From Methanofervidicoccus abyssi (GTDB lineage Archaea > AGJL01 > Methanococci > Methanococcales > Methanococcaceae): DNA of 64,000 bases. Made by a program: the position numbers and the translations under genes. The first letter of the stretch is position 1; every line of letters starts with the position of its first letter. The stretch spans positions 124,001 to 188,000 of the forward strand of contig NZ_BFAX01000004.1 in assembly GCF_004310395.1 (NCBI RefSeq), written 5' to 3'. The notes beneath the pieces were generated by a model. The model did not search any database. It was not told where the DNA came from and was given only the letters and a program-made list of their open reading frames with translations. Positions 32,181 to 37,297 of the stretch are shown here, in pieces.

Positions 32181-32459
32181 ATTAGGGTAGAAGAGTTAGA
32201 TGTTAATACAATAAAGGGGTCTTTTTTTTGGGTAAGATAAGTGGTTATCTAAAGGATTTATAATGAATAATCATGAAGGTTGTAGGGGATTAAATTAAGA
32301 ACATTATTAGTAGTGTACACTTATATCTATATATTTAAATACATAGATATATAGGATGTTAATATAGCTAACTCAAATATATAAAATTTACTATCAACTA
32401 TAGTTAAAAAAATATATAAAATATTAATAAAGAATGTTAGTTATACTAACACTGGATCG
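32181..32459 (+). other. Leader and promoter region of the regulator-fwd operon
   Basis: About 279 bases between the small membrane gene and the HTH-ferredoxin gene. GGGTCTTTTTTTTGGG (about 32218-32231) could end transcription of the small gene. The downstream half carries the paired palindromes and a TATA box described separately. Confidence 0.5.
32358..32450 (+). promoter_or_regulatory. Paired 15-bp inverted repeats in promoter of HTH-ferredoxin/fwd operon
   Basis: Two sites with the same layout GTTA-N7-TAAC: GTTAATATAGCTAAC at 32358-32372 and GTTAGTTATACTAAC at 32436-32450, 78 bases apart centre to centre. The second has fuller symmetry (GTTAGT-TAT-ACTAAC). Between them lies AACTATAGTT (32396-32405), and a TATA box AATATATAAA at 32411-32420 places the transcription start about 25 bases later, on or beside the second site. 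The arrangement suggests autoregulation by the adjacent HTH protein, by analogy only. Confidence 0.55.
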
Positions 32460-32942
32460 ATGTTAGTGACATCCATGCCAGAGCATATCCTATCAGGAAT
32501 CAAGGCCATAGTGGCAATGAAACTTAGAAGGGAGGGGAAATTACAGAAGGAAATAGCAGAATATCTAAATACAAATAGAGCTGAGATCTCCCACTATCTA
32601 CAGGGAAGGCATCCATCAAAAAGGGTCTTGAAAGTGTCTGAAGAGATCTTAAAATTACCTCCTCAGTATGCAGTAATGATTATAAACTCCCTCAGTAATG
32701 ATAAAGAAATCACATCGAGGATAATCAAGGTGTTATACAACACCAGGGTAGAGGTAGAAAAGGATAAGTGTATCTTCTGTGGAGAATGTTTAGAATGTCC
32801 CTACAAAGCTATAGAGAGGGACAGTAGTGGTACAGTTGTTGTTAATAGCAACAGATGTAGAGTATGTGGGAGATGTATATCTCTATGTCCAACAGATGCC
32901 TTGAAATTAGTATTTCTAAATAACAACAAATTGGGGGAATAA
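32460..32942 (+). CDS. HTH-ferredoxin regulator upstream of fwd
   Basis: 160 residues in two parts. Residues about 10-55 form a helix-turn-helix (KLQKEIAEYLNTNRAEISHYLQGRHPSKRV), and residues about 98-152 form a dicluster ferredoxin domain (CIFCGECLECPYKAIERD, then CRVCGRCISLCPTDAL). The first cluster motif is C-x2-C-x2-C-x2-CP, one residue shorter than usual before the fourth cysteine. A DNA-binding protein carrying Fe-S clusters could sense redox or metal status. One base separates its stop from fwdF. The start could be ATG 32475, which follows GTGA, rather than 32460. Confidence 0.82.
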   Translation: MLVTSMPEHILSGIKAIVAMKLRREGKLQKEIAEYLNTNRAEISHYLQGRHPSKRVLKVSEEILKLPPQYAVMIINSLSNDKEITSRIIKVLYNTRVEVEKDKCIFCGECLECPYKAIERDSSGTVVVNSNRCRVCGRCISLCPTDALKLVFLNNNKLGE

Positions 32943-32943
32943 A

Positions 32944-34029
32944 ATGACATTGGTAAAGAAAAAGTTTATTGAAGTAAAAAAGGAAAAATTAGGCAAAGAT
33001 TTTAAGATAATAAGGGAAGGATCTGTTGAAAAGAGAGTGCTCTACTGGAGTGATGACTACTGTGTTGGCTGTGGTATCTGTGAAGATATCTGTCCAGTTG
33101 GGGCTATAGAGATGGGTCCCTTAGGTGCTATCTTTAAAGGTGTAGTGGATGCTCCAAAGTTAGATGTGGATAGTTCAAAGTGTGTACTCTGTGGCATGTG
33201 TGCAGCTGTATGTCCTTTTAACGCTATGGACTTGGAGATAAACGGTACTTCCATAAAGAAACTTCCACAGTTTCCAAAGATTAAAAGGGATATCACTATA
33301 AATCAGGATGTATGTGTCCTATGTAAGCAGTGTGAAGTGGTATGTCCCCAAGCTACCATCCATGTTGAAAGAGAAGTTCCTGAGAGAAAAACCCTGGTTT
33401 TAGGGGAGATATCCATCAACAAAGATCTCTGTGTATTCTGTGGAATATGTGCAGATTATTGTCCAGCAGATGCTATAAAATTGATACCTAACGAGGAAAC
33501 CCCACTAACTTTGAACCCCTATAAGGATATAGTAATAGATACAGAAGTCTGTGTATACTGTAAGGTGTGTGAAAAAGCCTGTCCCCATGGAGCTATAGAA
33601 GTGATATGTTATAAGTGTCCCCTTGTAAAGAGGATAAAGACACCTGAGATACATAAAGAGATAAAAGGAAAAGTTGTTGTAGATAAAGACTTCTGTGTTG
33701 CCTGTAGTTGGTGTGAAAAGGTATGTCCAGTAGATGCTATAAAGGTGGAGAAGCCATTTGAAGGGAAGTTGATTATAAAAGAGGAACTTTGTAGTGGTTG
33801 TGGAGCATGTGTCGCTATATGTCCATGTAATGCATTGGCATTCCCAGAACCAAAGGAACAGGGGGAGAAGGTTCCGAAGTTGGTTGTAAATCAGGATGTA
33901 TGTATCCTCTGTGGTGCTTGTACCAAGGCATGTCCTGCAGGTGCATTGGAAGTTAAGAGAACAAAGGGAAATATGACAGATACCAAGATACTTGCATGGA
34001 AGAAGGCATTTGATAAGTTGTTAAATTAA
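32944..34029 (+). CDS. fwdF: Formylmethanofuran dehydrogenase subunit F (polyferredoxin)
   Basis: 361 residues with eight ferredoxin motifs of the C-x2-C-x2-C-x3-CP type, beginning at CVGCGICEDICP (about residue 40) and ending at CILCGACTKACP (about residue 320). In the tungsten/molybdenum formylmethanofuran dehydrogenase complex, FwdF forms an electron wire between catalytic units. GGGGG precedes the ATG. It follows the regulator gene by one base and precedes fwdG by 18, so translation is likely coupled. A further cysteine outside the motifs lies in YKCPLVKR. Confidence 0.95.
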   Translation: MTLVKKKFIEVKKEKLGKDFKIIREGSVEKRVLYWSDDYCVGCGICEDICPVGAIEMGPLGAIFKGVVDAPKLDVDSSKCVLCGMCAAVCPFNAMDLEINGTSIKKLPQFPKIKRDITINQDVCVLCKQCEVVCPQATIHVEREVPERKTLVLGEISINKDLCVFCGICADYCPADAIKLIPNEETPLTLNPYKDIVIDTEVCVYCKVCEKACPHGAIEVICYKCPLVKRIKTPEIHKEIKGKVVVDKDFCVACSWCEKVCPVDAIKVEKPFEGKLIIKEELCSGCGACVAICPCNALAFPEPKEQGEKVPKLVVNQDVCILCGACTKACPAGALEVKRTKGNMTDTKILAWKKAFDKLLN

Positions 34030-34047
34030 AAAGTCATAGGTGATCTT

Positions 34048-34287
34048 ATGTATAAGTTAGAGGTGTATCCGGAGAAATGCCACGGATGTGGAAACTGTGT
34101 TATAGCATGTCCTGTAAATGCCAGAGATCCCAACGTATTTGGAGGAAAAGGTCCAGAAGACGACAGTAAAGTTGTAATGAGGATTATAAATGGAGTTGTT
34201 ACCATTATCAACGGCGATCTATGTAAAGGATGTGGAGCATGTGTGGAAGCCTGTCCTGTAGATGCTATAAAACTTATAGTAGAGTAA
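34048..34287 (+). CDS. fwdG: Formylmethanofuran dehydrogenase subunit G (ferredoxin)
   Basis: 79 residues with two [4Fe-4S] motifs, CHGCGNCVIACPVNARD and CKGCGACVEACPVDAI. FwdG carries electrons into the catalytic subunit of the complex. GGTGAT precedes the ATG. It is followed by fwdD after 10 bases. Confidence 0.93.
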   Translation: MYKLEVYPEKCHGCGNCVIACPVNARDPNVFGGKGPEDDSKVVMRIINGVVTIINGDLCKGCGACVEACPVDAIKLIVE

Positions 34288-34297
34288 AGGTGATACG

Positions 34298-34690
34298 ATG
34301 AAGTTTATATTGAATACGGGAAGAACTATCTGGCAGGGGGAGGCCATAGAAGCAGGGAAAAACCTCGAGATGTACAGAAAGGCAGCAGCAGTTTGCTATA
34401 TAAATAAAGAGGATATGGAAAAGTTAGGCCTAAAAGATGGAGATACTGTAAAGGTAATATCAGAGTATGGAGACGTTGTAGTCTACGCAAAGGAAGCAAG
34501 TGAGCATATGCCTGAAGGTATGGTCTTTATACCTATGGGTCCTTGGGCAAATAGTGTAAGCTCACCTAAAACTGACAGTACTGGAATGCCATCTTTTAAG
34601 GATGTACCTGTTGAGATAGTAAAGGCTGAGGGGGAGAAGGTTCTCTCTATGAGTGAACTGATGAGAAAGAAGTACATAGAAAGGGATTAA
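34298..34690 (+). CDS. fwdD: Formylmethanofuran dehydrogenase subunit D
   Basis: 130 residues, the molybdopterin dinucleotide-binding beta-barrel domain that in formate dehydrogenases is the C-terminal part of the catalytic chain. Segments: INKEDMEKLGLKDGDTVKVISEYG and GMVFIPMGPWANSV. In the complex it completes the metallopterin site together with FwdB. GGTGAT precedes the ATG. Confidence 0.93.
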   Translation: MKFILNTGRTIWQGEAIEAGKNLEMYRKAAAVCYINKEDMEKLGLKDGDTVKVISEYGDVVVYAKEASEHMPEGMVFIPMGPWANSVSSPKTDSTGMPSFKDVPVEIVKAEGEKVLSMSELMRKKYIERD

Positions 34691-34706
34691 CTTTGAGGTG
34701 ATCTAG

Positions 34707-36410
34707 ATGGAATACATCATAAAGAATGGGATTGTATTTGATCCCTTAAATAGGATAGACGGAGAAAAGATGGACATCTGTATAAAGGACGGCGTAATTG
34801 TAGAATCTGTATCTAAGGATGCTAAAGAAATAGACGCCAGTGGATGTGTAGTAATGCCTGGAGGTATAGACTCCCATACTCACATTGCAGGACCTAAGGT
34901 AAATACTGGAAGATTGATGAGGCCAGAGGACAGTTATAGAGATATTTATTACAAAAAAGGGTTGAAACCAGGTACTGGGTTTTCCATCCCTTCAACCTAT
35001 AAAACAGGTTACCAATACTGTGAGATGGGATATACTACTGTAATAGAAGCTGCAATGCCTCCACTGAAGGCAAAACATGTCCATGATGAATTTGTAGATA
35101 CTCCCCAGATAGACAAAGGAGCGTTAACACTATTTGGTAATAACTGGATAGTTATGAAGTATCTTAAGGAGAAAGAATATGAACTATGTGCTGCCTACGT
35201 AGCTTGGGTTTTGAGGAATGTAAAGGGGTTTGCCATAAAGATAGTAAACCCAGCTGGAACTGAAGCCTGGGGATGGGGAAAAAACGTCCATGGTCTTGAT
35301 GATCCTGCCCCTTATTTCGGTATAACTGGAAGGGAGATAGTAAGAGGACTGTGTAAAGTAAATGAAATGTTGGGACTACCTCACTCCATCCATGTCCATC
35401 CAAATGACTTAGGACACCCTGGAAACTGGAGAACAACAATAGAAACCATGGGCTGTGTTAAGAATATGGAACCTAAACCAAAATATGGGAATAGAGAGAC
35501 CGTGTACTACAATACCCATGTCCAATTCCACTCCTACGGTGGAACATCCTGGAAGGACTTCGTAAGTAAGGGAGTTGAGATTGCAGAGTACGTTAATAAG
35601 GTAGATCATGTGATGATAGACGTAGGACAGATTACTTTAGATGAGACAACAACTATGACTGCAGATGGGCCTATGGAGTACGATCTTCACATGTCAACAG
35701 GTAACAAGTGGGCAAACTGTGACGTTGAATTGGAGACAGGTTCTGGAGTTGTGCCATTTTACTACTCTCCAAAGGGACCGGTATATTCTGTACAGTGGGC
35801 AATTGGTTTAGAAATATTCCTCAATACAGATCCTAGTAAAGTAATACTTGCCACAGATCATCCAAATGGGGGACCATTTACTAGGTTCCCAAGGATAATA
35901 GCCTGGTTGATGAGTAAGAAGTATAGGGACTACTGGTTAAATGAAAAGGTCCATAAATGGGCAAGGACAAGATCATCAGTTGGAGACAACGATAAGGAAT
36001 ACACCATGTACGAGATTGCTCAGATAACTAGGGCAAATCAGGCAAAAGTGTTAGGACTTAGTCCAGAGAGAGGGCACCTGGGAGTTGGAGCTATAGCTGA
36101 TATCGCCATTTACGAAATAGCACCTGAAGAGAAAGATCCAAAGATTATCGAGAGAGCATTTAGATACACTAAATACACATTCAAGAGAGGAGAGATAGTT
36201 GTTAAAGATGGAAACATAGTTAAGGAGATATTTGGAGATACCATATATGTAGATGTGAAGATAGATGAAACCTTAGAGAAGGAGATGATGAAGGACTTAG
36301 AGGAAGTATTTAAGAAAAACTACACTGTTCAGATAGAAAACTACAAAGTTTCTGATCATTTAGCTAACAGTTGGAAGGTTATCCAGATAGACAGCTCTGA
36401 GATCACTTAA
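34707..36410 (+). CDS. fwdA: Formylmethanofuran dehydrogenase subunit A
   Basis: 567 residues, a dihydroorotase-like amidohydrolase that condenses formate with methanofuran. The binuclear metal site is visible: HxH in GGIDSHTHI (His57 and His59), the carboxylated lysine in FAIKIVNPAG (Lys178), histidines in HSIHVHPNDLGHPG, and the aspartate in ATDHPNGGPFTR. The lysine falls at the same number as in the published Fwd structure. GGTGAT precedes the ATG. fwdC follows after 71 bases. Confidence 0.96.
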   Translation: MEYIIKNGIVFDPLNRIDGEKMDICIKDGVIVESVSKDAKEIDASGCVVMPGGIDSHTHIAGPKVNTGRLMRPEDSYRDIYYKKGLKPGTGFSIPSTYKTGYQYCEMGYTTVIEAAMPPLKAKHVHDEFVDTPQIDKGALTLFGNNWIVMKYLKEKEYELCAAYVAWVLRNVKGFAIKIVNPAGTEAWGWGKNVHGLDDPAPYFGITGREIVRGLCKVNEMLGLPHSIHVHPNDLGHPGNWRTTIETMGCVKNMEPKPKYGNRETVYYNTHVQFHSYGGTSWKDFVSKGVEIAEYVNKVDHVMIDVGQITLDETTTMTADGPMEYDLHMSTGNKWANCDVELETGSGVVPFYYSPKGPVYSVQWAIGLEIFLNTDPSKVILATDHPNGGPFTRFPRIIAWLMSKKYRDYWLNEKVHKWARTRSSVGDNDKEYTMYEIAQITRANQAKVLGLSPERGHLGVGAIADIAIYEIAPEEKDPKIIERAFRYTKYTFKRGEIVVKDGNIVKEIFGDTIYVDVKIDETLEKEMMKDLEEVFKKNYTVQIENYKVSDHLANSWKVIQIDSSEIT

Positions 36411-36481
36411 TTATTTTAAAAATTCAAAATTTTTATTATTTTAATAATTTTATTATTTAATAATAAAAATTAGGTGAGAGA

Positions 36482-37297
36482 ATGGAAATTATACTTACAC
36501 TTAAAGAAGATATAACAGTTCCAGTGGAGTTAGATGCACTACTTCCTGAAAAGATAGATAATATGGATGTGGAGGAAATCAAAAATATAAAGATACCACA
36601 GGGAAGGACAACTGTAAAGGTAGGGGAGTTATTCGATGTTGAGATAAGAGAAAGTGATACACCAAAGATGACAATAAAGAACTCCTCCATTAAGTTAAAG
36701 AGGGTTGGAGAAGGAATGACCACCGGGGAGATAGTAATAGAGGGAGATGTTGGTATGCATGTAGGCGCAGAGATGAAGGGAGGTAGGATAGTTGTAAATG
36801 GAAATGCAGATAACTGGGCTGGTAGGGGAATGAAAGGAGGAGAGTTAGTAATAAAAGGAAATGCGGGGAATTACGTAGGTTCTGCCTATAGAGGAGGATA
36901 CTGGGGAATGTCTGGAGGTACTATAGTGATAGAAGGAAACGCCGGCCATGAGATAGGAGAATACATGACTGGTGGTAAAATACATATCAAGGGAAATGTA
37001 GGGTACTTTGCGGGCATCCATGCAAAGGGAGGGCTTATAGTAATAGATGGGGATGTCCCTGGTAGGTTAGGCGCAGAGATGATAAAAGGGGCTATTGTTG
37101 TAAATGGTAAGGTCTCTGAAATACTACCTTCCTTTAAATACAAAGGTATAGTTGAAAATCCCGTTATAAAGATAAAGAAGAAAGATGAGGGAACTAAGAT
37201 AGAAGGAGTTTACCACATGTTTGCAGGAGACTATGTAAATAATAAACCTAAGGGACAGTTGTATATATCTGTAGATAGGAATCCCCATCTAGGATAA
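36482..37297 (+). CDS. fwdC: Formylmethanofuran dehydrogenase subunit C
   Basis: 271 residues. Most of the protein is a right-handed beta-helix of repeating GxxMxGGxIVIxGNAGxxVG units (residues about 75-215), related to the glutamate synthase GXGXG domain. It is a structural part of the complex. TTAGGTGAGAG precedes the ATG. A spacer of 71 bases from fwdA, with AT-rich sequence, may include a separate promoter. No fwdB gene follows; the next gene is convergent pcm. Confidence 0.95.
   Translation: MEIILTLKEDITVPVELDALLPEKIDNMDVEEIKNIKIPQGRTTVKVGELFDVEIRESDTPKMTIKNSSIKLKRVGEGMTTGEIVIEGDVGMHVGAEMKGGRIVVNGNADNWAGRGMKGGELVIKGNAGNYVGSAYRGGYWGMSGGTIVIEGNAGHEIGEYMTGGKIHIKGNVGYFAGIHAKGGLIVIDGDVPGRLGAEMIKGAIVVNGKVSEILPSFKYKGIVENPVIKIKKKDEGTKIEGVYHMFAGDYVNNKPKGQLYISVDRNPHLG

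Follow-up and report, generated by a model that had tools for sequence, protein, structure and literature searches.

Regulators that pair an iron-sulphur (Fe-S) cluster with a helix-turn-helix (HTH) and control their own operon already exist, IscR and SufR being the established examples. How methanogens set the level of formylmethanofuran dehydrogenase, the CO2-capturing enzyme of methanogenesis, is largely unexplained, and for Methanothermobacter no sensor of H2 is known (PMC3087415). Two proteins described from that genus are closest to the locus analysed here. FwdH is encoded by the first gene, before fwdF, of the operon for the tungsten (W) enzyme, fwdHFGDACB, and is listed as part of the enzyme (PMC3087415). 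Tfx is an HTH protein encoded beside the formylmethanofuran dehydrogenase operon fmdECB, which it is thought to control; as cited in PMC3087415, it is described for the molybdenum (Mo) operon, with binding downstream of the promoter and repression of tfx by tungstate. We identified a gene in the same place as fwdH in a stretch of 64,000 nucleotides of Methanofervidicoccus abyssi (contig NZ_BFAX01000004.1, positions 124,001 to 188,000), which is referred to as the window and numbered from its first base. The gene (32475..32942, forward strand) encodes a protein of 155 amino acids, HTH-Fd, in which an HTH is joined to a ferredoxin tail. Like Tfx, by description only, it lies beside a formylmethanofuran dehydrogenase operon. 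In contrast to the listing of FwdH with the enzyme, sequence comparison makes it likely that HTH-Fd is a palindrome-binding regulator of its own fwd operon with a pair of operators, a judgement that extends neither to the sign of control nor to the signal. The HTH-Fd family as a whole very probably consists of palindrome-binding regulators of CO2-fixing genes.

The start codon of HTH-Fd was placed by conservation at the ATG at 32475 (MPEHILSG...) and not at the ATG that opens the reading frame 15 bases earlier (32460). The HTH lies at approximately residues 20-45 and is followed by two 4Fe-4S motifs with eight Cys residues, the combination that an earlier reading of the DNA letters (the sequence-only reading) had described. 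Both Cys motifs were matched above cut-off by Fer4 and Fer4_7, defining a 2[4Fe-4S] dicluster ferredoxin domain, and the N-terminal half scored 22.5 bits against Pfam HTH_3 (cut-off 23.0). The HTH signature and the eight Cys residues were found in 75 of 75 relatives, and the recognition helix is conserved as R-S-x-I-S-H-Y-L-x-G-R. The predicted fold (mean predicted local distance difference test score 80.5, predicted template modelling score 0.61) consists of an all-helical N-terminal part (helices 2-19, 24-30, 35-43, 49-59, 63-74 and 77-88) and a ferredoxin-like C-terminal part. A Foldseek search against the PDB was convincing for the ferredoxin half only and gave no E-value below 0.001. The helical N-terminal domain, the conserved recognition helix and the palindromic site with a 5-bp spacer are shared with regulators of the Xre/Cro-C1 type (HTH_3), from which HTH-Fd differs by its ferredoxin tail and by the HTH_3 score just below cut-off. 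HTH-Fd would resemble IscR and SufR in joining an HTH to Fe-S clusters and in controlling its own operon, but those proteins have another Fe-S fold than its 2[4Fe-4S] ferredoxin tail. No Rrf2, DeoR-like or Crp-type HTH domain, as in Fe-S regulators of the IscR, SufR and FNR type, matched HTH-Fd at E 0.01. The first Fe-S motif (32769-32798) reads CX2CX2CX2C in most Methanococcales versus CX2CX2CX3C in Methanobacteriales, and cluster 1 of HTH-Fd may be unusual or labile.

A protein search identified a close full-length relative of HTH-Fd in 36 of 36 Methanococcales genomes (own genome counted). Among the more distant archaea sampled, the same search found relatives in members of one other lineage only, the Methanobacteriales. 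A profile search of the class of this second lineage gave HTH-Fd in 113 of 152 genomes, one of which (G187) is a partial weak match, and a profile search of 394 genomes placed full-length members in the Methanococcales and Methanobacteriales groups only. Named contigs of a second collection assign the relatives of the second lineage to Methanobrevibacter, Methanovirga and other Methanobacteriaceae, and the nearest relative of the window protein, 94% identical, to a contig titled Methanothermococcus okinawensis. The orthologue lies upstream of fwdF in all 36 Methanococcales genomes and at every Methanobacteriales locus examined, so that the expected occurrence of HTH-ferredoxin genes beside fwd was borne out and extends beyond the Methanococcales. 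The genomes of the second group without HTH-Fd that were checked, as far as they belong to ordinary genera, also lacked fwdA or contained an fwdA truncated by the assembly. Genus g42 and locus L132 (G187), probably Methanosphaera, carry fwdDBAC without the usual fwdF, HTH-Fd and upstream motif; either they have lost the regulator or they never acquired it. In one genome of the second group (L137) the genes run HTH-Fd, fwdF, G, D, A, C, B, with nifH next. This order matches fwdHFGDACB, and HTH-Fd thus takes the position of FwdH. As judged from gene order and homology, and not from the named FwdH record itself, the window protein is most likely the FwdH orthologue.

The promoter of the gene contains both of the palindromes that had been noted in the bare sequence, at exactly the positions given there. 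These are 15-bp inverted repeats of the form GTTA-N7-TAAC at 32358-32372 (GTTAATATAGCTAAC) and 32436-32450 (GTTAGTTATACTAAC). Operator site 1, a candidate assigned to no strand, extends over 32357..32373 as a 17-bp palindrome, TGTTAATATAGCTAACT, whose position and symmetry are kept in relatives. It lies just 5' of TATA1 (32378..32385, forward strand, TATATAAA), a conserved box at a fixed distance from site 1 and the probable main promoter. A second, less widely conserved TATA-like box, TATA2, is present at 32413..32421 on the same strand (TATATAAAA), which gives two boxes where the sequence-only reading had named one. Candidate operator site 2 (32435..32451, no strand assigned) is a perfect palindrome of 6+6 bp, TGTTAG-N5-CTAACA. 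It lies 78 bp downstream of site 1; a transcript from TATA1 would include it at about 30 bp from the 5' end, and with TATA2 in use it would span the start. Between the two TATA boxes, upstream-region alignment and a local inverted repeat defined a middle element (32387..32407, no strand assigned, TTTACTATCAACTATAGTTAA) with the consensus TTTCTA..N..TAGAA. It is an imperfect palindrome across the initiation region predicted from TATA1 and is conserved in both orders.

Alignment of the upstream regions showed a common order in Methanococcales and Methanobacteriales, which is palindrome, TATA box, TTTCTA...TAGAA, an A/T-rich or TATA-like stretch, palindrome and start codon. The palindromes are kept in relatives across both orders. 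With the motif TGTKW-N7-WMACA (at least 8 of 10 positions matching), sites paired at a distance of 77 or 78 bp were found in 46 of 67 promoters, whereas 200 local shuffles gave 1.45 on average and 6 at most. The motif is also held in position relative to the TATA box, which follows site 1 after 4 bp in 54 of 66 promoters. The arms themselves drift from GTTAG/CTAAC in the window genus to GTGAG/CTCAC or CACAC, and to GTGTA/TACAC in Methanobacteriales, and their symmetry is retained. Positions 4 and 14 were complementary in 52 of 58 distinct sites (35.8 expected after partner shuffling) and positions 5 and 13 in 44 of 58 (25.8 expected). Site 1 is better conserved than site 2.

The concern that such palindromes might occur at many unrelated promoters applies to the loose form of the motif and not to its refined form. 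GTTA-N7-TAAC was counted 51 times across the genome, five of them in the window, and its reversed control 18 times; this loose form was rejected as a definition of the operator and replaced by GTTARTNNNRCTAAC, which is nearly unique to the HTH-Fd promoter. The refined motif has three places in the genome, two of which are sites 1 and 2. The third (G000:C3:174133, with a looser match 94 bp further on) lies inside a cobS-like coding sequence and was judged to be a chance occurrence. Within the 64-kb window TGTTAR-N5-CTAACW has no exact match other than this pair. Across nine genomes of the window genus the HTH-Fd promoter accounts for 14 of the 17 distinct places of the refined motif, and in ten Methanocaldococcaceae genomes the HTH-Fd locus accounts for 12 of the 13 distinct places of TGTGAG-N5-CWCACA, some of them within the HTH-Fd gene. 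Single matches elsewhere (L096-L098, L111, L113) have no gene context in common and were rejected, as were the remaining TGTGT-N7-ACACA places in Methanothermobacter-type genomes, most of which lie within coding sequence or beside unrelated genes. In the latter genomes (L126 position 1501 and equivalents) the palindrome TGTGTATGAGACACACA is conserved immediately ahead of a gene for a methyltransferase-like protein that has no relation to fwd.

A further palindrome is located inside the HTH-Fd coding sequence itself, 319 bp from the start codon, in 12 Methanocaldococcaceae genomes (L023-L034). Its codons are invariant in these genomes (TGT for C108, CTC for L111 and ACA for T112), whereas Cys and Leu codons elsewhere in the gene vary even where the residue does not change. 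Only 8 of the 63 degenerate positions at invariant residues use one codon in all 12 genomes, and three of these eight are in the motif. From this codon usage, the intragenic palindrome looks like an operator within coding sequence.

Only two of the 36 Methanococcales genomes, G009 and G012, contain a second full-length HTH-Fd, with the recognition helix RTVITHYLAGR. Inspection of the neighbourhood of the paralogous gene revealed repeated TGTGTA-N5-TACACA palindromes. Genome-wide, this motif occurs as a perfect palindrome six times in G009 and eight times in G012. Of 11 Methanococcales that lack the paralogue, eight have none and three have one; the reversed control of the motif gave 0 in all genomes but one. 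The candidate regulon loci are L133 (G012:C1:1364000-1383000), L134 (G009:C1:490000-509000) and L166-L169. The genes behind the sites are cdhB/cdhA (carbon monoxide dehydrogenase/acetyl-CoA synthase, CODH/ACS), a kor cluster with a carbonic-anhydrase-like gene, por, the purE operon, an extra fwdF, fwdD2-fwdB2, an fwdA2-C-F-G operon and a gamma-carbonic-anhydrase-like gene. Genes for pyruvate carboxylase subunits B and A have a site approximately 300 bp upstream, and in G012 a site with one mismatch precedes a TupA-like tungstate-binding gene of a tungstate importer. The por alpha, TupA and carbonic anhydrase assignments are below the equivalog cut-off and hold at family level only. Nearly all of the candidate target enzymes use CO2 or bicarbonate, and many also consume reduced ferredoxin. 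In these two genomes the protein family is tied to this class of motif and to CO2 fixation by evidence that does not depend on the fwd promoter. Nearly all sites lie just downstream of TATA-like boxes, and this position between TATA and start indicates repression by the paralogue.

The conserved neighbourhood, the operator pair with its symmetric arms, the near-unique motif and the motif of the paralogue together support the link between a DNA-binding ferredoxin and its own fwd operon. The HTH half would bind as a dimer, one half-site per monomer, and HTH-Fd would occupy both palindromes at the fwd promoter, site 1 just 5' of the TATA box and site 2 in the transcript. In this way it would set how much formylmethanofuran dehydrogenase, the enzyme through which CO2 enters methanogenesis, is made. 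Repression is more likely than activation. Site 1 borders the B recognition element (BRE) and the TATA box, and binding at either site might block initiation or elongation, resulting in autorepression. The two sites, 78 bp apart, may be bridged by one complex.

Several points weigh against a regulator acting on this operator pair. DNA binding by HTH-Fd and its effect on expression are deduced from sequence, and the HTH_3 score is slightly under the Pfam cut-off. In the shuffle tests the motif came from the very promoters under test, and phylogeny does not enter the symmetry test; the pair and symmetry tests are strong but no independent proof of operators. Promoter sites were not recognizable in L029 and were weak in L036, a clear site 2 is missing in many Methanocaldococcaceae, and some Methanobrevibacter promoters retain only half of site 2. 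The paralogue test comprises two genomes only. HTH-Fd might instead be a plain electron-carrying subunit of the enzyme (FwdH), its N-terminal helices binding the enzyme and the palindromes belonging to another regulator. Its gene is part of the fwd operon, its ferredoxin half resembles FwdF, and FwdH of fwdHFGDACB is listed with the W enzyme (PMC3087415), all of which suits a subunit. The HTH signature is invariant in the 75 relatives, however, and the motif accompanies the gene even where a duplicated copy lies outside the main fwd operon. In a search with the family profile no PDB chain contained the HTH half together with the ferredoxin half, Fwd complexes (among them 5t5i, 7bkb, 9sfi and 9sw6) included, and the matches covered the ferredoxin half only, to Fwd-type chains, although absence from the solved complexes is no proof of absence in vivo. 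We consider the subunit explanation improbable. An action of site 2 in RNA, as a leader hairpin near the ribosome-binding site that controls translation, is more improbable still. Site 2 would be transcribed if TATA1 is used, and in Methanobacteriales the palindrome abuts GGTGA ahead of the ATG, but the same motif at site 1, upstream of TATA1, would stay untranscribed, the paralogue sites are at the initiation region, and arms of 5-6 bp with mostly A-U pairs would be weak for hyperthermophiles.

With HTH-Fd accepted as a regulator, the sign and the signal can still be read in other ways. Known archaeal activators bind next to the BRE, and HTH-Fd bound at site 1 beside the TATA box could recruit TFB/TBP, with site 2 serving negative feedback. 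The better conservation of site 1 and its fixed distance to TATA1 fit such an activator, and a site upstream of TATA could serve activation equally well, which counts against repression. Because the candidate sites of the paralogue are nearly all just downstream of TATA, where a bound protein would block initiation, and repression would also agree with a second site that is itself transcribed, activation seems rather unlikely. The signal could be the supply of W or Mo, as the sequence-only reading had suggested for example, or the cell's supply of Fe-S clusters, and not the redox state of ferredoxin. Fwd is a W and Fe-S enzyme, and in one paralogue genome the one-mismatch site lies at the TupA-like tungstate importer; the presence of this importer among the candidate targets keeps W possible as a signal. 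Against this, the domain search of HTH-Fd gave no metal-binding domain besides Fe-S, the candidate targets pyruvate carboxylase, purE and carbonic anhydrase depend on neither W nor Fe-S, and Methanothermobacter is reported to make the W enzyme constitutively (PMC3087415). Supply of metal or clusters is a doubtful signal, and for the window copy W or Mo found no direct support.

For the probable autoregulator HTH-Fd, the redox state of ferredoxin and the supply of CO2 are a better guess as signal than W/Mo because of the ferredoxin tail, the candidate targets that use CO2 and ferredoxin, and the constitutive W enzyme of Methanothermobacter. The tail might exchange electrons with the ferredoxin pool, and the regulator could then, with low confidence, read reduced ferredoxin relative to CO2. 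Tentatively, a family of ferredoxin-tailed repressors may read the reduction of the ferredoxin pool, which would rise with CO2 shortage, and thereby derepress CO2 capture. In most Methanococcales and Methanobacteriales this would concern the fwd operon only. With a second copy it would concern a whole inorganic-carbon regulon, comprising a second formylmethanofuran dehydrogenase, CODH/ACS, pyruvate and 2-oxoacid synthases, pyruvate carboxylase, carbonic anhydrase and tungstate uptake. In Methanococcus maripaludis the Fwd subunits barely changed under H2 limitation (log2 ratio 0.20-0.28; PMC2723118). Neither Fwd nor carbonic anhydrase was raised in a CO2-limitation transcriptome (PMC12727201), which was weighed neither for nor against. 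The idea of a DNA-binding ferredoxin that switches its own fwd operon is thus supported in part, by conservation and as far as the operator link is concerned. No description of an HTH-ferredoxin regulator, of FwdH as such or of the locus was found in the open-access papers searched, and what appears new relative to them is a family of regulators with a ferredoxin tail whose paired operator lies at the genes for the first step of methanogenesis. HTH-Fd is a concrete candidate regulator in two orders, with operators given base by base and natural variants for specificity work, and two genomes offer a candidate regulon for inorganic carbon. By this comparison FwdH, although listed with the enzyme subunits, may be a transcription factor.

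Downstream of HTH-Fd, all genes of the operon are on the forward strand. The last of them, fwdC (36482..37297), matched NF042910 above cut-off; no fwdB follows directly (37297 onward), and the catalytic subunit is therefore encoded elsewhere. It is preceded by fwdA (34707..36410; NF042911, 1038 bits with a cut-off of 950), fwdD (34298..34690; NF042908 above cut-off) and a gene for an fwdG-type 2[4Fe-4S] ferredoxin (34048..34287), assigned by operon position and by its match in relatives. The small FwdG-like ferredoxin is the only downstream fwd product that did not exceed a specific NCBIfam cut-off. The first enzyme gene encodes the polyferredoxin FwdF (32944..34029; NF042909, 467 bits with a cut-off of 375). 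As noted from the letters alone, it is one base away from the regulator gene, which ends at 32942. Three genomes of genus g3 (L016, L017 and L022; see also L135) have an A/T-rich, apparently non-coding gap of 0.4-0.5 kb between HTH-Fd and fwdF, and this sequence suggests that fwdF has its own promoter in L016, L017 and L022.

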